In this document: piece by piece, positions 3,031-42,382 of the stretch
Position numbering within the stretch: the stretch's first letter is position 1
How the letters are laid out: each line of letters starts with the position of its first letter
Assembly (NCBI RefSeq): GCF_014863545.1
Contig: NZ_CP062260.1
Span: 1,426,001 to 1,490,000, forward strand
Reading direction: 5' to 3'
Origin: Paenibacillus sp. JNUCC32
GTDB taxonomy: Bacteria > Bacillota > Bacilli > Paenibacillales > Paenibacillaceae
Length of the DNA stretch: 64,000 nucleotides
The notes under the pieces: model-generated
The model's database searches: none
Told to the model about the DNA's origin: nothing
Seen by the model: only the letters and a program-made list of their open reading frames with translations
Translations under genes and position numbers: made by a program

Positions 3031-3076
3031 ACGTTCCAAGCGACCGAGGGTTCAGGTCAGCTTGGGACGTTTTTTT
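3031..3076 (+). terminator. Rho-independent terminator of the sulfonate operon
   Basis: ACGTTCCAAGC (3031-3041) pairs with GCTTGGGACGT (3060-3070) and is followed by a run of seven T. It lies 18 nt after the monooxygenase stop. Confidence 0.85.
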
Positions 3077-3187
3077 GGTCGCTTCAAATGCAAAAAAAGC
3101 TATACTATTTCTCGAGTGATATTGTCAGAAATGACGATCTTTTCAGGTCATATAAGTAGTCAACGATACGAAAGAGGGTTCGAGCAA

Positions 3188-4936
3188 TTGGAAACGACAG
3201 CAGACAGTGCGATTCAATGGGATGAGATGGAAGATGACGAGCTGGTGAAATACTCGCAGGCAGGGGAACGGGAAGCATTCGGGGAGCTTGTTCGGCGCCA
3301 TCGCTCCAAGGTGTATGGTTATGCCAGAGCGATAACGCGGGAGTCCTACTTAGCAGAAGACGTGGTGCAAGATGCCCTGATCCGAGCATTCATGCATCTT
3401 GGCAAATTGGTGGATGCCCGGCGCTTCCTTCCATGGATGCACCGCATCGTCCGGAATCAGGCCTATACCCGCCTTAAAGGGAGCTCCGCGTGCAAAGAGC
3501 AGACTTTCACCGAGCTAGAAGGCATGGGAAGAGTTAACGGTTCGGGGAGTCTGGAGCAATGGAACGATCTGGACAGCATTCTGGGCAGGCTCAACCATTC
3601 CGCAAGCGAAGCGGCCTCGGGTTTTAACGTACCGGAGGAGCGCATCGTGCAGCAGGAAACGCTGCGTGCTTTAACCGGCATCATTCAATGCCTGAAGCCG
3701 CGCGAAAGGCTTATTTTCGAATCCCATTTTTTCGATCAGCTGTCCCCGCAGGAAATTGCCGACTTGTTTCAGCTCTCTTCGGCCAATGTGTACCAGATTA
3801 TTTCGAGATCACGGAAAAAAGTGATCCAAGAAAAAATCCGCGTTACCGTTGACTCTTATATTAAGACGAGAAGGGACCTGGGAATTATGAAGAAGAACAT
3901 ATTGCCTTACGAAGGACCGATGAAAGAAACCAAAACCTGGACATCCGCAGCGGATGCCACGTACAAAATGCTTCAGTTTACAGACCGCAAGCTATCGCTT
4001 CCGATGGTCATGGGGCTGACGGGGCATGCATTCCGGATCAATATCATACCGAATGATGTCCATATCGCGGGCCCGACCGCCTATTTTTTCGGCGAATCTT
4101 TATCCCGCGGCCTTCATAATATCGGCTTCCATTCCAAATTCGTCGACGGCATGTCGGACGGCATCGGGACAAACGCCAATCTGCTGGATCCTGCCCTTAT
4201 GGAAAAGGGAGCGATGAATAAACGCAGCATTCATCAAGAGCTGCCAAGAGCCCTTGATTTGATCCATGCCTCATTGGATCGCGGATATCCCGTCCTGGCC
4301 TGGGATATTTTCTTTCCGGAGTTCGGAACGCTGTACGGGTACGATGACGAGACGAGAACCTTATATGCGGAGGAGTGCGGAAGAGTCGATACGCTGCCTT
4401 ACGAAAATCTGGGCAAGAGCGTCTTGGAAGAAATATTCGTCTTGGCGATTGAGGGTTCCGTGGATTTGACGCTTCGGCAGCAGCTGCGACTGGCACTGGA
4501 AACCGCCACCGAGTTATATGAAGGAAAGGAAAACGCGGTGCCGACGGCTGTGAAGGGAATCGCCGCCTACGATGCTTGGATTGAATCGCTGCATGGTCGT
4601 GAAATAGAGCCGAATGGTCATGCTTACAACATCGAAGTGCTGCGGGATGCCCGGTACTATGCCGCCGAGTTCTTCAAGGAACTGGTGAGCGCTTGGCCGA
4701 AAGCCATGGAGGACGGTCCGGATCTGACGGCATCGTTCGAAGATGCCGCCGCGCTGTATACGGAGATCTGTAAGAAGTTCAGTGTCCTGCATGGGATGTT
4801 TCCATTTCCGAAGGGTGGCGAGCCTAATTCGGCAGAACAAGCAGCAACGGCGATATCGCTGGTAGAGGAGATCAAGGCCTTGGAGATCGAAGCAGCTGCG
4901 AAATTGGGCCAGATGTTTTCTACATTGTCCTCCTGA
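3188..4936 (+). CDS. ECF-type sigma-70 factor fused to a BtrH-like C-terminal domain
   Basis: RNA polymerase sigma factor with an unusual C-terminal half. Region 2 lies at about residues 25-100 (YGYARAITRESYLAEDVVQD), followed by a longer than usual linker. Region 4 lies at about 165-225 (LSPQEIADLFQLSSANVYQI). Residues from about 233 to 582 form a second module that resembles the BtrH N-terminal, cysteine-peptidase-like family (LTGHAFRINIIP, then GYPVLAWDIFFPEFGTLYGY). Ordinary ECF factors are about 160-220 residues. I choose TTG 3188, because AGAGGG lies just upstream; the open frame extends further 5' to 3062 but runs through the previous terminator. An in-frame ATG at 3887, right at the junction, could also start the C-terminal module alone. 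The sigma call is secure; the C-terminal family is a motif-level judgement and its function is unknown. Confidence 0.82.
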   Translation: METTADSAIQWDEMEDDELVKYSQAGEREAFGELVRRHRSKVYGYARAITRESYLAEDVVQDALIRAFMHLGKLVDARRFLPWMHRIVRNQAYTRLKGSSACKEQTFTELEGMGRVNGSGSLEQWNDLDSILGRLNHSASEAASGFNVPEERIVQQETLRALTGIIQCLKPRERLIFESHFFDQLSPQEIADLFQLSSANVYQIISRSRKKVIQEKIRVTVDSYIKTRRDLGIMKKNILPYEGPMKETKTWTSAADATYKMLQFTDRKLSLPMVMGLTGHAFRINIIPNDVHIAGPTAYFFGESLSRGLHNIGFHSKFVDGMSDGIGTNANLLDPALMEKGAMNKRSIHQELPRALDLIHASLDRGYPVLAWDIFFPEFGTLYGYDDETRTLYAEECGRVDTLPYENLGKSVLEEIFVLAIEGSVDLTLRQQLRLALETATELYEGKENAVPTAVKGIAAYDAWIESLHGREIEPNGHAYNIEVLRDARYYAAEFFKELVSAWPKAMEDGPDLTASFEDAAALYTEICKKFSVLHGMFPFPKGGEPNSAEQAATAISLVEEIKALEIEAAAKLGQMFSTLSS

Positions 4937-5035: not shown

Positions 5036-5186
5036 GACGTTATTGCACTAAAGTTGCAGTCGCACCTCAATATCAACTACTATTTAAAGAGGGACAGAAC
5101 TTCTAGAATGTTAGCAACGCGTTTTGTTTTTATTTACTACTCGAGTCGTCACGGCTCTGAATCACACAATCGAAAGGAAGTATCCC

Positions 5187-5930
5187 ATGAATTCTTTGCA
5201 AATCGAACAGCTCAAAATCATTCGGAACGAAATTACCCGATTCATGATGAAATACAAATTCGCCTTAGATGAGATCGAAACCAAGATGGAGATATTAAAA
5301 GAAGAGTTTCAGGCTCTTCATGACTATAGCCCGATCGAGCATACGAAATCCCGCCTGAAATCGCCGGAGAGCATCATGAAGAAGCTGCTTCGCAAGGGCG
5401 GAAACATATCGCTCCGTTCCATAGAAGATAACATTAAGGACATTGCGGGTTTACGAATCACCTGTTCATTCATTACCGACATTTACAAAATCAGCGACAT
5501 GCTGCAGAATCAAAGCGATTTAACGGTCCTGAACGTCAAGGACTACATCAAGAATCCGAAGCCGAACGGATACCAAAGCTTGCATCTGTTAGTGGAAGTG
5601 CCCGTCTTTTTCTCTGACCGGGTGGAGAAGGTATGCGTTGAAGTCCAGATTCGAACGATTGCCATGGATTTCTGGGCGAGTCTGGAGCATAAGATCTTTT
5701 ACAAATATAATAAGTCGGTTCCCCAGCACCTGCTCGAAGAGCTTAAGAAGGCGGCGGATACCGCCAACGCGCTGGACCGTCAGATGGAGCAATTGCATCG
5801 CGAAGTGCAGGCCATTAAGGATTCGGAAAGCGACGATTCGCTTCTTGAGGAATTAAAAAGCATCCAGATCAACAACCGCAAGTATGAGCTCCCGGCGGGC
5901 TTGCTCGAAGTATTGACGGAGGATAATTAA
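5187..5930 (+). CDS. Small alarmone synthetase, RelA/SpoT-domain GTP pyrophosphokinase (RelP/RelQ type)
   Basis: Makes (p)ppGpp by transferring pyrophosphate from ATP to GDP/GTP. It is a stand-alone cytosolic synthetase of 247 residues without the HD hydrolase or ACT/TGS domains of long RelA. The synthetase signatures are present: SIMKKLLRKG, then IKDIAGLRITCSF, YIKNPKPNGYQSLHL and VEVQIRTIAMDFWASLEHKI. A charged, coiled C-terminal tail follows, longer than in the roughly 210-residue Bacillus enzymes. The start is ATG 5187 with AAAGGAAG upstream; an in-frame ATG at 5124 lacks a site. It follows the sigma fusion, but a terminator separates them. Confidence 0.9.
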   Translation: MNSLQIEQLKIIRNEITRFMMKYKFALDEIETKMEILKEEFQALHDYSPIEHTKSRLKSPESIMKKLLRKGGNISLRSIEDNIKDIAGLRITCSFITDIYKISDMLQNQSDLTVLNVKDYIKNPKPNGYQSLHLLVEVPVFFSDRVEKVCVEVQIRTIAMDFWASLEHKIFYKYNKSVPQHLLEELKKAADTANALDRQMEQLHREVQAIKDSESDDSLLEELKSIQINNRKYELPAGLLEVLTEDN

Positions 5931-5968
5931 GACGTACCCGGGCGGCGCAAAAAAGGAATGCCTGACCT

Positions 5969-5993
5969 GTTTCATCGCCCTTGCACCGGGTAT
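5969..5993 (+). promoter_or_regulatory. SigB-like promoter of candidate RNA 1
   Basis: GTTTCA (5969-5974), a 13-nt spacer, and GGGTAT (5988-5993) match the general-stress SigB pattern GTTT..-N12-15-GGGWAW. The arrangement is repeated exactly before candidate RNA 2, including the 17-nt offset from GGGTA to the start of the closing helix. The sigma factor is inferred; many Paenibacillus lack a classical SigB. Confidence 0.6.
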
Positions 5994-6000
5994 ATATATC

Positions 6001-6229
6001 CTAAGTGGGAAGTGGAAACACATCAACACCAGACGGATAACAAGACGTTAAGTCGGAATTACCGAAAGGATTTGATACCCATGTACAACGAAACAAGGAA
6101 TAAGGACGACACAGCCTGAATTATTCCGGCGTACACCTTAAGCTATTAAAGCAATGGAATGATAGCGTCAGAATGGATATAACCGCTTCCCACGAAAAAA
6201 ACTCTGCGAGTGATCTCGCGGAGTTTTTT
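6001..6229 (+). ncRNA. Candidate structured small RNA, copy 1
   Basis: The intergenic stretch between the alarmone synthetase and hemY has the form of an independent RNA gene of about 230 nt. After the promoter at 5969-5993, GTGGGAAGTGG (6005-6015) can pair along all 11 nt with CCGCTTCCCAC (6183-6193, one U-G pair). A terminator follows at once. The same layout, with matching sequence blocks (ACCGGGTA.ATATA, AAGTGGGAAGTGG, CCGAAAGG, TTGAT), recurs at 8524-8748. Inside it is a possible 12-codon ORF (6081-6119) behind AAAGGA. I do not recognise the family; it does not read as tmRNA, RNase P or a known riboswitch, but 6S-like or raiA-like RNA has not been excluded. Confidence 0.55.
6199..6229 (+). 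terminator. Terminator of candidate RNA 1
   Basis: AAACTCTGCGAG pairs with CTCGCGGAGTTT over a 4-nt loop and is followed by a T run. It starts 6 nt after the RNA closing helix. Confidence 0.85.
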
Positions 6230-6392
6230 GCTGTCGACGACCATCCCAGCACCTGGATCATGAGTGCAGCACGAACAATTATAGCTTGTTCAGGGGCGAT
6301 GTCCGGGAAATCGGTGGCTGTGAACGGTTCTGTTCACAATATTGAGGGAATGGCACCCGACGAATGAACGGCCACTATGATATACTTAGGAA

Positions 6393-6421
6393 TTGGATAC
6401 AATGGTAACGTAACATTATAT
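6393..6421 (+). promoter_or_regulatory. Possible SigA promoter of hemY
   Basis: TTGGAT (6393-6398), a 17-nt spacer and TTATAT (6416-6421), about 40 nt before the GTG start. Both boxes are partial matches. Confidence 0.4.
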
Positions 6422-6460
6422 ATTATTGATATAAACCTACATAATAGAGGTGTATGTACA

Positions 6461-7858
6461 GTGACAACTACCGTAGTCATCGGCGGCGGCATTACCGGAC
6501 TTTCGACCTTATATTATCTGCAAAAAGAGCTGAAACAGCATCGACGGGACATGGACTTGGTGCTGGTTGAGGCAAGCGATGTGCTGGGAGGCAAAATCCG
6601 AACCGTCCAGAACGGTGAATTTATTATGGAAACCGGAGCGGATTCGATCGTATCCCGGAAAACGAATGTGGCGCCGCTTCTGGAGGAGCTTCAGATAACG
6701 GACCAGGTTGTGTACAATGCCACGGGGACTTCTTTCATATATACAAACGACGGCCTAAAAAAAATCCCCGAGGAGAGCGTATTCGGCATACCGCTTAGCT
6801 TGAAATCCTTGACCGAAAGCGAGCTGGTATCCGCGGAGGGGAAGGTAGAGGCGCTCAAGGACTATTACACGCCGAATGAGACGTTCACCAAGCATGATTC
6901 CCTGGGAGAATTCCTTGAGTCCTTTCTAGGAAAGGAAATTGTTCAGAACCAGATCGCTCCGGTCATATCGGGCGTCTATTCCGGGGAGCTCCATGACCTG
7001 ACCATTGCGTCCACATTCCCCTATTTGCTGGAGTACAAAAATACCTACGGCAGCATCATGGGCGGTTTGGCCGAGAATAAACAGAAGTTCCTTGGCACCG
7101 GCAATAAGAAATTTATTTCCTTCAAAGACGGTGTCTCGGTTTTGATTGACGCACTGGAACGGAGCCTGACAGAAGCAGGCGCGAAGATCTGCAAGGGCGT
7201 TGCCGCTGAGAAGCTGGAGAGAACGCCTAACGGCTATCGATTGATGCTGGCGAACGGCGAACAGATGGAAGCGGATTTTGTTGTAATAAGCACGCTGGGA
7301 TCAAGCGCGAAAGAGCTGCTGGAAGATCCGCGGCTTCACGAGGATTTTGACCAATTGTATACGAAGTCGCTCATTAGCGTGTATCTGGCCTATGATATTC
7401 GAGATGAAGAGCTTCCTTACGACGGCACGGGATTCATTACGGCCAAGGGGACGAAGCTGAAGTGTGACGCATGCACCTGGACGAGCCGGAAATGGGAGCA
7501 CACCTCCGAGAATAATCGGCTATTGATGCGATTGTTCTACAAAAGCTCCAATCCGTATTATGACCAATTAATCCGATTGTCGGACGAAGAATTGAAGCAT
7601 GTCGGGATGGAGGATATCCGTCAGAGCTTAGGTTTAGAGGCTGAACCCGTGTCCTGCGAAGTTACCAAATGGCATGAGAATATGCCGAACTATCATCTGA
7701 AGCACAGGCAGGTCGTGGAGTCGCTGGAGCTCGCAATGGAAGACCTTTATCCTAACGTGATGCTTGCCGGCTGTTCATATTATGGCGTTGGGATCCCGGA
7801 CTGCATCGCGAACGGCGAGAAGACGGCAGGTATGATCATGGAAAGGATGCTCAAATGA
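6461..7858 (+). CDS. hemY: Coproporphyrinogen III/protoporphyrinogen IX oxidase
   Basis: FAD-dependent oxidase of late haem synthesis. In Firmicutes the HemY/CgoX enzyme oxidises coproporphyrinogen III to coproporphyrin III with O2. The N-terminal dinucleotide-binding motif VVIGGGITGLSTLYYL is followed by EASDVLGGKIRT and METGADSI, all standard for the family. The C-terminal FAD-contact region is VMLAGCSYYGVGIPDCIANG. At 465 residues it is close to B. subtilis HemY. The GTG start at 6461 is favoured by AGAGG 11 nt upstream. The gene stands apart from other hem genes and overlaps the next gene by ATGA. Confidence 0.92.
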   Translation: MTTTVVIGGGITGLSTLYYLQKELKQHRRDMDLVLVEASDVLGGKIRTVQNGEFIMETGADSIVSRKTNVAPLLEELQITDQVVYNATGTSFIYTNDGLKKIPEESVFGIPLSLKSLTESELVSAEGKVEALKDYYTPNETFTKHDSLGEFLESFLGKEIVQNQIAPVISGVYSGELHDLTIASTFPYLLEYKNTYGSIMGGLAENKQKFLGTGNKKFISFKDGVSVLIDALERSLTEAGAKICKGVAAEKLERTPNGYRLMLANGEQMEADFVVISTLGSSAKELLEDPRLHEDFDQLYTKSLISVYLAYDIRDEELPYDGTGFITAKGTKLKCDACTWTSRKWEHTSENNRLLMRLFYKSSNPYYDQLIRLSDEELKHVGMEDIRQSLGLEAEPVSCEVTKWHENMPNYHLKHRQVVESLELAMEDLYPNVMLAGCSYYGVGIPDCIANGEKTAGMIMERMLK

Positions 7859-8427
7859 CCATCTATATCGCTTTGCTTCGAGGAATCAACGTCGGCGGAC
7901 ACAATAAAATCAAAATGGCCGACTTAAGAAAAATGCTTGAAGGCATGGGCCTAGCCCGCGTGCAAACATACATTCAGAGCGGAAACGTGCTCTTCGAATC
8001 TGCGGATTCCAAGGAAACGCTGCAGGTCCAAATGGAGCAAGGAATACAAGAAGCGTTCGGCTTCCCGATAACCGTGATACTCAGAACCTCGCAGGAAATC
8101 GAGGGCATCGTCCGGCATTGTCCTTTTTCGGAAGAAACGATACGTGCGGCGGAGGCAGCATCGGAGTTTGAGAGTCTTTATGTTGCCATGCTGCCGGAAG
8201 CACCGACTCCCGATGACGTTGAGAGATTGAGGCTCTACGTGAACGATAAAGAAACTTTTGAAGCGATCGGAGAAGAAATCTATTTGCTGTTTAAGGAAAG
8301 CGTTCGGAATTCCAAGCTGGCGGCGCAAATGGCAAAGTTCGGCGTACCGATGACGATGCGGAATTGGAAAACCATGAACAAGCTGGTAGAGCTGTCCCGA
8401 ACGATGCAAAATGAACAGCCGCTATAG
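7855..8427 (+). CDS. DUF1697 domain protein
   Basis: A 190-residue cytosolic protein of the widespread DUF1697 family, whose function is unknown. The diagnostic start YIALLRGINVGGHNKIKMADL is visible, followed by IQSGNVLFES near residue 40 and RNWKTMNKL near the C terminus. It overlaps hemY by 4 nt, so the two are co-transcribed. No catalytic residues can be assigned. Confidence 0.85.
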   Translation: MTIYIALLRGINVGGHNKIKMADLRKMLEGMGLARVQTYIQSGNVLFESADSKETLQVQMEQGIQEAFGFPITVILRTSQEIEGIVRHCPFSEETIRAAEAASEFESLYVAMLPEAPTPDDVERLRLYVNDKETFEAIGEEIYLLFKESVRNSKLAAQMAKFGVPMTMRNWKTMNKLVELSRTMQNEQPL

Positions 8428-8491
8428 TGGATTCAAGGTGACGGAGGAGGCATTAGCGGCATCCGATTTCGAAGGAAATTTGGGCCGGCGT

Positions 8492-8516
8492 GTTTCACTT
8501 CCCGTGGACCGGGTAA
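8492..8516 (+). promoter_or_regulatory. SigB-like promoter of candidate RNA 2
   Basis: GTTTCA (8492-8497), a 13-nt spacer and GGGTAA (8511-8516). This is the same boxes and spacing as at 5969-5993. Conservation of promoter-like blocks while the surrounding sequence diverges supports function. Confidence 0.6.
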
Positions 8517-8523
8517 ATATAGA

Positions 8524-8748
8524 ACAAGTGGGAAGTGGTATTGTCAATCGACGGACGGAAGAACATCATGTCATTCCGAAAGGCAGTTGATTCGCCATGA
8601 ACACTCGCAAAAGGAGAAGGAGAGCGAAGTTTCTTCGATTCTTTTCAGGTAAGGCACCCTAGCAATTGGAAAATTGCTGCATAATGAATAATAAAATCGC
8701 TTCCCACTGATAAGGATCCTGCGATATCATTCGCGGGGTCTTTTTTTT
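8524..8748 (+). ncRNA. Candidate structured small RNA, copy 2
   Basis: Diverged partner of the element at 6001-6229. GTGGGAAGTGG (8528-8538) pairs with TCGCTTCCCAC (8697-8707) over 11 nt including U-G wobbles, again followed by a terminator. Shared internal blocks are CCGAAAGG then TTGATTC.CCATG, and a purine-rich AAGGA..AAGGA stretch. A 21-codon ORF at 8597-8662 would give a very basic peptide (MNTRKRRRRAKF...), so the transcript may be dual-function or the ORF may be chance. The retained helix, promoter and total length point to a paralogous RNA gene, not a leader of the surface protein 450 nt downstream. Confidence 0.55.
8714..8748 (+). terminator. Terminator of candidate RNA 2
   Basis: GATCCTGCGA pairs, with wobbles, to TCGCGGGGTC and is followed by eight T. 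It resembles the terminator of copy 1 in position and partly in sequence. Confidence 0.85.
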
Positions 8749-9110
8749 GTGCGGATTAAGCAATAGTTACAGTATGTAAGATACGCCGGAGCGGGAGTTG
8801 TTGCTCAAAGATGAATTGAAAATAAGTCGTTCATAGTGCTGAAGTATCGAACAATAGAGGTTGTTGGATCCCGAAATATGTACCTTGAGAAACGGATGAG
8901 CCATATGCCATGGACAGAAAGACGCGGCGTTAAGTTGTCCTATTGTACTAGAGGTTCAGCGAATATCGGGACCTTTATATCATTTATCAAATTTTACATA
9001 AAGTGGTTTAAAAAACGATCGGAATATGCAATTATTGATCTTGGGAGGTGAAGAGGAAAAGGACCCCTCAAGGGGAAAAGCCTAAGTTGAAATCGCGAGG
9101 GATGTTATGT

Positions 9111-42112: not shown

Positions 42113-42192
42113 GACTCCTACCAGGAAAGCGACCTCTGGTAGGAGTCATTAGCTATGGAAGCGGTTATGGCGAACTCCATCGCCTCATTCAA
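42113..42192 (-). promoter_or_regulatory. Fluoride (crcB) riboswitch with terminator
   Basis: Read on the minus strand, GGCGATGGAGTTCGCC (42184-42169) is the hallmark first hairpin. It is followed by ATAACCGCT, then AGCTAATGACTCCTACC (42155 downward), the conserved pseudoknot-forming 3' block of the fluoride aptamer. The 3' part is shared with a 12-bp hairpin, GACTCCTACCAG/CTGGTAGGAGTC (42147-42113), followed by TGTTTGTG. Fluoride binding would therefore prevent termination and turn the CLC gene on. The CLC start lies 53 nt downstream. Confidence 0.9.
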
Positions 42193-42382
42193 TTAGCATT
42201 TATTGTAATGGACCGGCGGCTTATATGTCAACAGACAACAAATCAGGGTTTAAACGAACGCTTAATTCGGATTGCTGCGATAGACCTGGAAAAAAGTGCT
42301 TGACTTGGACATGGACTTTTTTCCAAGGAGAAATTCAAATTGTCCATGGACGAAGAAAGGTGTCTATTTTATAGTTACCAAT

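Follow-up and report, generated by a model that had tools for sequence, protein, structure and literature searches.

In Staphylococcus aureus, SbrA and SbrB are SigB-dependent small RNAs with putative basic peptides of 26 and 38 amino acids (aa), and a dual role has been proposed for SbrB (PMC3861533). The dual-function small RNA SR1 of Bacillus subtilis also encodes a small protein, SR1P (PMC8152036), and type I toxin mRNAs (for example, Helicobacter aapA1) are compact, structured messages for short peptides (PMC6733600). Here we analyse two RNA genes, copies A and B, in a 64,000-nucleotide (nt) stretch of the genome of Paenibacillus sp. JNUCC32 (RefSeq assembly GCF_014863545.1, contig NZ_CP062260.1, positions 1,426,001 to 1,490,000; hereafter the window). 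We consider it likely that copy B is a structured, stand-alone mRNA that is driven by SigB and encodes a cationic microprotein, and that copy A is a paralogue that has kept the RNA. SR1P is larger and is not known to be SigB-driven. Compared by description only, SbrA/SbrB appear to be the closest published analogue that we found, sharing an intergenic position, a SigB-type promoter, a terminator and a putative basic peptide (PMC3861533). The combination of a small SigB-type RNA gene with a basic peptide is shown for copy B and its relatives (class B), not for the class of copy A (class A). For SbrA/SbrB, the available portion of that report mentions neither a closing helix nor inner helices, nor a neighbouring paralogue that lacks the peptide, all of which are features of the window's family (PMC3861533). 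Both copies have the following layout (window positions):

5969–5992, + strand: copy A SigB-type promoter GTTTCA-N13-GGGTA (GTTTCA 5969–5974, GGGTA 5988–5992), by direct reading and family conservation
6003–6231, + strand: copy A predicted transcript, ends placed from promoter and terminator (fold z −6.5; covariance family)
6005–6015, + strand: copy A 5′ arm of the closing helix P1, GTGGGAAGTGG, by fold and covariation count
6062–6076, + strand: copy A CCGAAAGG (Shine-Dalgarno) to TTGAT, also the 3′ strands of helices P3 and P2
6081–6119, + strand: copy A 12-codon frame MYNETRNKDDTA, coding selection not detectable
6097–6127, + strand: copy A conserved hairpin GGAATAA...TTATTCC, overlapping the end of the frame
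6183–6193, + strand: copy A 3′ arm of P1, CCGCTTCCCAC
6196–6231, + strand: copy A intrinsic terminator, by fold and by the family's terminators
8492–8515, + strand: copy B SigB-type promoter GTTTCA-N13-GGGTA (GTTTCA 8492–8497, GGGTA 8511–8515), by direct reading and family conservation
8526–8750, + strand: copy B predicted transcript, ends placed likewise (fold z −4.4; covariance family)
8528–8538, + strand: copy B 5′ arm of P1, GTGGGAAGTGG
8576–8591, + strand: copy B CCGAAAGG (Shine-Dalgarno) to TTGAT, also the 3′ strands of P3 and P2
8597–8662, + strand: copy B microprotein gene MNTRKRRRRAKFLRFFSGKAP, 21 aa, net charge +9, with coding selection in class B
8662–8677, + strand: copy B hairpin P4, GCAATTGGAAAATTGC, its first base being the last base of the stop codon
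8697–8707, + strand: copy B 3′ arm of P1, TCGCTTCCCAC
8712–8750, + strand: copy B intrinsic terminator and T run, as in the family

The original prediction, made from the letters of the window, had described two homologous RNA genes with a shared promoter and a closing helix around a drifting interior. For copy B, the interior turned out not to be merely drifting: it is a brief coding sequence that follows a conserved Shine-Dalgarno and evolves under strong purifying selection. CCGAAAGG and TTGAT are indeed conserved, but they are more than the short blocks described: they make up the initiation region and also serve as 3′ strands for two inner helices. Of 118 sequences examined by script, 114 have, soon after a GAAAGG-type block, an ATG that opens a frame of 8 codons or more. 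Peptides with a net charge of +6 or more made up 92 script calls (63 distinct); together with L049, whose start was misassigned by the script, and L180, which lay beyond its range, a Lys/Arg-rich peptide is present in 94 of the 118 sequences, copy B included. Class B peptides have 17–32 residues and a consensus of about MxxLKRxxRxRxxRxFSGKxP (22 sequences); the 64 distinct ones have a median length of 22, a median net charge of +8 and 36% Lys/Arg. In 30 independent (non-overlapping) pairs, 84 changed codons were synonymous and 47 non-synonymous, a fraction of 0.641 compared with 0.244 (standard deviation 0.034) when changes were placed at random, and none of 2,000 random placements reached the observed value. 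The other two reading frames gave 0.103 and 0.104, below their nulls, and an all-pairs version (186 non-independent pairs) gave 0.361 compared with 0.205. This synonymous excess, seen in that frame only, argues that class B, with copy B as a member, is protein-coding and under purifying selection. In one locus (L099, genome G119) the peptide frame is broken by a frameshift.

The peptides matched no described protein in the searches made. Ten class B peptides gave no match in NCBIfam and a single sub-threshold line in Pfam (DUF7068, 15.7 of 27 bits), no PDB chain matched a class B peptide, and the 64 peptides showed no excess of amphipathic helix (mean z 0.03). Further peptide types occur in small numbers in the same scaffold, namely MDDLRLEKSEDFFKD and a TN-R/H-PRD type of a second family. 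The TN-R/H-PRD core is found in L168, L171, L173, L176 and L179 (second family, f6), with some synonymous differences by eye, and once (G442) this type stands alongside a cationic copy in one genome.

Class A behaves differently in the codon test. Four independent pairs contained 2 synonymous and 9 non-synonymous changes, with no excess, and 19 overlapping pairs contained 18 synonymous and 84 non-synonymous changes (0.176 compared with a null of 0.192). Were selection of the class B kind to hold, 2 or fewer synonymous changes in 11 would have a probability of 0.0025, a figure from a small sample. The interior of class A is instead occupied by the conserved hairpin, whose outer helix is paired in 97.4% of cells and has both-side changes in 4 of 11 pairs (as high in 3 of 500 shuffles), with a covariation score that beats all 500 shuffles. 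The Shine-Dalgarno and ATG are still present in copy A, and class A apparently keeps promoter, scaffold and start without a peptide. Because the scaffold is kept, peptide selection is undetectable and the interior is a conserved hairpin, copy A probably works as RNA. Most class A genomes also have class B, and class A loci lie mostly just upstream of hemY.

The family was delineated with two home-made covariance models, R1 (8 sequences) and R2 (29 non-redundant rows, four helices), the E-values of which are rough. The covariance search of Paenibacillus genomes that the original prediction had proposed found relatives in 54 of 100 same-genus genomes with R1; all 67 R1 matches in fetched loci had full model length. 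R2 matched 84 of 394 family genomes (7 of 19 genera) and 58 of 296 sampled order genomes (11 of 48 genera, a second family included). In the class sample, 8 of 398 genomes had a match: six belong to the same genus, one is a short and weak match within the family (E 4.8e-4) and one, outside the order, is weak (E 0.0025) and was not counted, so these 398 genomes, a sample that may lack Staphylococcus aureus, yielded no convincing member outside the order. Only part of the family-wide and order-wide R2 matches was fetched as loci, and 51 of 60 fetched rows entered later analyses, with the near-copies L131, L138, L162, L163 and L165 and four weak opposite-strand rows left out. All of this family evidence is comparative, and because the sequences share ancestry the counts do not represent independent events. 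Among the named carriers are Paenibacillus glucanolyticus, P. lactis, P. solani, P. jilunlii, P. zanthoxyli, P. forsythiae and Fontibacillus phaseoli. A scan with the 5′ pattern returned at least 80 genome loci; 35 of those listed contain 36 full-length R2 matches (E below 1e-13), every one in a record of Paenibacillus, Fontibacillus or Paenibacillaceae, and the best match elsewhere among the loci listed, from an Acidobacterium record, is only 49 nt long (E 5.3e-4). Among 17 viral contigs with the 5′ pattern the best R2 match reached only E 0.099, and copy B DNA, the only copy queried, had no match in plasmid and phage records. A rearranged member may be represented by L154 (positions 1852–2033 and upstream flank, genome G062), a weak match (E 0.001) with three tandem Shine-Dalgarno-plus-ATG modules (GAAAGGAT.TGATTCC.ATG) followed by a single 3′ arm and terminator.

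Membership of a described family (6S, raiA and others), which the original prediction had left to be checked, was not found in Rfam 15: the only gathering-score match in the window is a fluoride riboswitch elsewhere, at 42133–42193 (− strand, 60.1 bits), the interval 5900–8800 gave nothing up to E 5, and the RNA of five relatives had no match. Among the top matches listed in open-access literature on Paenibacillus SigB RNAs, structured RNAs and microproteins, we found no report of this RNA family, which is apparently undescribed so far. An RNA-sequencing study of P. riograndensis counts 27 small RNAs and 34 small proteins in its intergenic transcripts (PMC5670726), and a raw transcript of the family may already be tabulated in the supplements of that study.

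RNA structure is also conserved. For each predicted transcript all 200 shuffles fold less well; together with the covariance family, this bears out the proposal of two homologous, structured copies, and the closing helix is present as described (11 base pairs in copy A; the eleventh pair in copy B is G-U). Helix counts for P1–P4 were made on 29 sequences against 500 shuffles and slid versions of the alignment. P1, which joins the transcript ends, is paired in 95.4% of cells, P2 (ATCAA/TTGAT) in 88.8%, P3 (CGGAA/TTCCG) in 85.5% and P4, the hairpin at the stop, in 68.4%. Both-side changes occur in 9 of 29 pairs (as high in 17 of 500 shuffles), and the covariation score and the share of paired cells are better than in all 500 shuffles; further pair types are not unusual (matched in 61 of 500), and one slid version equals the real alignment in cells with both-side changes (21). 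With more distant loci (60 rows), both-side changes occur in 18 of 29 pairs and no shuffle reaches any measure, in an alignment that was fitted to the model, leans towards it and includes four opposite-strand and two weak or partial rows. Compensatory changes in homologues, on which the original prediction had staked the structure, are thus found in the helices of both alignments. Support for P1 comes mainly from the strict conservation of two complementary arms, which are more invariant than pairing requires.

The predicted unpaired fraction of the Shine-Dalgarno is 0.62, compared with 0.38 for the whole RNA (115 sequences; 0.50 in copy A and 0.59 in copy B), and hardly alters when the 3′ end is removed (0.64); the 5′ arm of P1 is predicted to be unpaired at only 0.03. 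Since removal of the 3′ end makes so little difference, it is not obvious that P1 silences translation, and in these folding models it is more likely that P1 guards the RNA ends. The duplex energy of the Shine-Dalgarno with what we take to be the 16S tail averages −13.9, compared with −5.3 for shuffled sequences; two patterns for this tail gave no match in the genome. For comparison, when the best of up to 25 starts is taken from each of 50 long frames of the window, the mean is −12.0 and the strongest value −18.2. A ribosome sponge acting through an unusually long Shine-Dalgarno was rejected, the site being good and not extraordinary beside the best window starts.

The promoters are SigB-type, as originally read: GTTTCA-N13-GGGTA recurs with an exact 13-nt spacer in both copies, the offset of 17 nt from the first G of GGGTA to the GTGGGAAGTGG arm is also exact in both, and a −35 G[TA]TT stands 13–15 nt before the −10 in 103 of 111 distinct upstream regions (mononucleotide shuffles: mean 7.7, largest 18). 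The −10 lies inside the search models and is therefore partly built in; the −35 and the terminator lie outside them. L153 and L154 were left out of the −35, terminator, Shine-Dalgarno accessibility and neighbour counts, and L073:7486 has no recognised −10. Because the pattern by itself is not rare (at least two matches in 21 of 100 shuffled windows), the evidence lies in its position and its conservation in relatives. The window promoters nearly match the Bacillales SigB consensus KTTTW-N12-17-GGGWAW, as given in the part of the source available (PMC9847131), the fifth −35 base being C, not W. Terminator-like hairpins follow in 106 of 111 distinct downstream regions, compared with 9 of 111 shuffled ones; in the window a terminator stands behind the 3′ arm of both copies as predicted, at a spacing of about 2 nt (A) and 4 nt (B), shorter than the 6–8 nt originally given.

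The genome encodes, in a row, an anti-sigma antagonist, RsbW (NF003144, 161.4 bits, cut-off 145; TIGR01924, 137.9 bits, cut-off 155.05) and a SigB/F/G-type sigma factor. An orthologue of this sigma factor is present in 99 of 100 genus genomes (the exception, G074, lacks an RNA match and has distant paralogues only). Among RNA-positive genomes from other genera it occurs in 50 of 50, and among hand-picked RNA-negative genomes in 53 of 61. For four of the latter (G041, G048, G053 and G056) an R2 run is not evident, and 57 are counted as searched by handle numbering; the resulting split (50 of 50 compared with 50 of 57; one-sided p 0.010, uncorrected for kinship) gives weak support.

On the basis of these comparisons, each copy would be a stand-alone gene whose SigB-type promoter yields a short folded RNA. 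The 11-base-pair P1 would join the RNA ends beside the terminator and probably protect the transcript, and P2 and P3 would frame a fairly accessible Shine-Dalgarno. Under stress, ribosomes would then make a strongly cationic microprotein of about 21 residues from copy B and most of its relatives; we propose that a SigB-made transcript with an open Shine-Dalgarno would give a burst of cationic peptide. This peptide may act on a polyanion, with RNA or the ribosome as first choice and the membrane as second, a target that we suggest tentatively. In copy A, the paralogue, the promoter, scaffold and start codon would have been retained, and the interior would have become a conserved hairpin.

Several observations weigh against this reading. 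The transcript and the peptide are predictions from sequence, and the peptide target is proposed from charge alone. The class A codon test comprises 4 independent pairs only; one of five measures for the class A hairpin is contrary (5 further pair types compared with 6.7 in shuffles, a number below that of every one of the 500), and only 70.5% of cells in its inner helix are paired. P1 has little covariation because its arms are nearly invariant, and the search models contain P1. Eight of the 111 upstream regions lack the −35 pattern. The sigma factor has SigB as its best match, yet scores 206 of 315 bits against the SigB cut-off and 203.1 of 234.35 against that for SigB/F/G, and its co-occurrence with the RNA says little since nearly every genus genome carries it.

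The neighbourhood also bears on function. The hemY gene lies between copies A and B as predicted (NF009081, 793 bits, cut-off 702), together with a DUF1697 gene (PF08002). Across 116 loci, the nearest neighbours form 58 clusters upstream and 59 downstream. A member of the hemY cluster is nearest in 17 of these loci, in two genera; five loci of another genus (L125, L127, L128, L132 and L135) have it immediately in front of class B genes. The hemY link recurs, although it is absent from most loci. A riboswitch or leader of hemY is unlikely given the terminator after each copy and the varied neighbours, which suggest that the RNA or peptide may act in trans. Neighbours are conserved within the window's species group. 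A protein cluster that by eye resembles a GGDEF-type membrane sensor lies nearest downstream in 22 of 116 loci (class B of the MYY type: L051, L053, L055–L062, L101–L103 and others). Immediately before copy A, 5124–5930 encodes a small RelA/SpoT-domain protein (best named model YjbM-type GTP diphosphokinase, 194 bits, below the cut-off of 320), and 3062–4936 encodes a protein with sigma-70 regions 2 and 4 and a C-terminal extension of about 370 residues without Pfam coverage.

The same variety of neighbours, which leaves no room for a leader of a single gene, would also suit a family of regulatory RNAs in which both copies pair in trans (the C-rich CUUCCC arm, freed by the opening of P1, being one example of a pairing site) and the class B peptide is a minor second product. 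In its favour, the P1 arms are more invariant than pairing needs, with little or no variation in 5 of 11 core pairs, and the scaffold is kept in class A without peptide selection; however, class B codons are strongly constrained and the C-rich arm is predicted to be buried, given the closed 5′ arm, and we judge this account unlikely. A further reading, in which the class B microprotein binds the shared scaffold, in its own mRNA and in class A RNA, to form a self-regulating ribonucleoprotein, perhaps on ribosomes in stress, seems to us quite improbable.

The short peptide, the end-to-end helix and the terminator recall the folding control of type I toxin mRNAs, as described in the part of the source available (PMC6733600), in which a harmful peptide would be silenced by a closed fold and controlled by an antisense RNA. 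The resemblance to these compact, structured messages extends to the end-to-end pairing, here the 95.4% of P1. Unlike them, the window's family has an open Shine-Dalgarno with or without the 3′ arm and a very basic peptide: the 64 distinct class B peptides are not hydrophobic and show no amphipathic excess, and on this feature a toxin was rejected. A scan for sigma-A-like antisense promoters shows no enrichment (1.7% of 116 sequences reach a score of at least 10, compared with 4.1% of shuffled ones), and altogether a toxin mRNA is very unlikely.

In g32/g42 genomes the gene lies at unrelated sites within a shared repeat unit (L160–L165, L144, L145 and L147; G462, G476, G493, G444, G387, G376 and G370) that has a common left flank of about 90 nt and, in most, a common right flank, as a small repeat dispersed in the genome might; the RNA gene is present twice in G462, G476 and G387. 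That the whole family is a small mobile repeat, the parts of which seem conserved merely because the copies are recent, is nevertheless extremely improbable, as promoter, terminator, helices and codons are conserved across clearly diverged genera, neighbours are kept in the window's species group and the class B codon test contradicts it.

The reading of copy B as a SigB-driven mRNA for a cationic microprotein, beside a paralogue that kept the RNA, would be new in that a small RNA gene of SigB type, encoding a basic peptide, is set in a conserved closed scaffold and lies next to an apparently peptide-free paralogue. The evidence directly predicts outcomes for northern blots, ribosome profiling and sigB deletions. 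If the reading is true, at least two families of one order carry an unannotated, probably SigB-driven gene family, the product of which is too short for gene finders and was hence skipped, and the adjoining coding-constrained and apparently unconstrained paralogues would separate an RNA role from a peptide role, which is hard to do for most dual-function RNAs.

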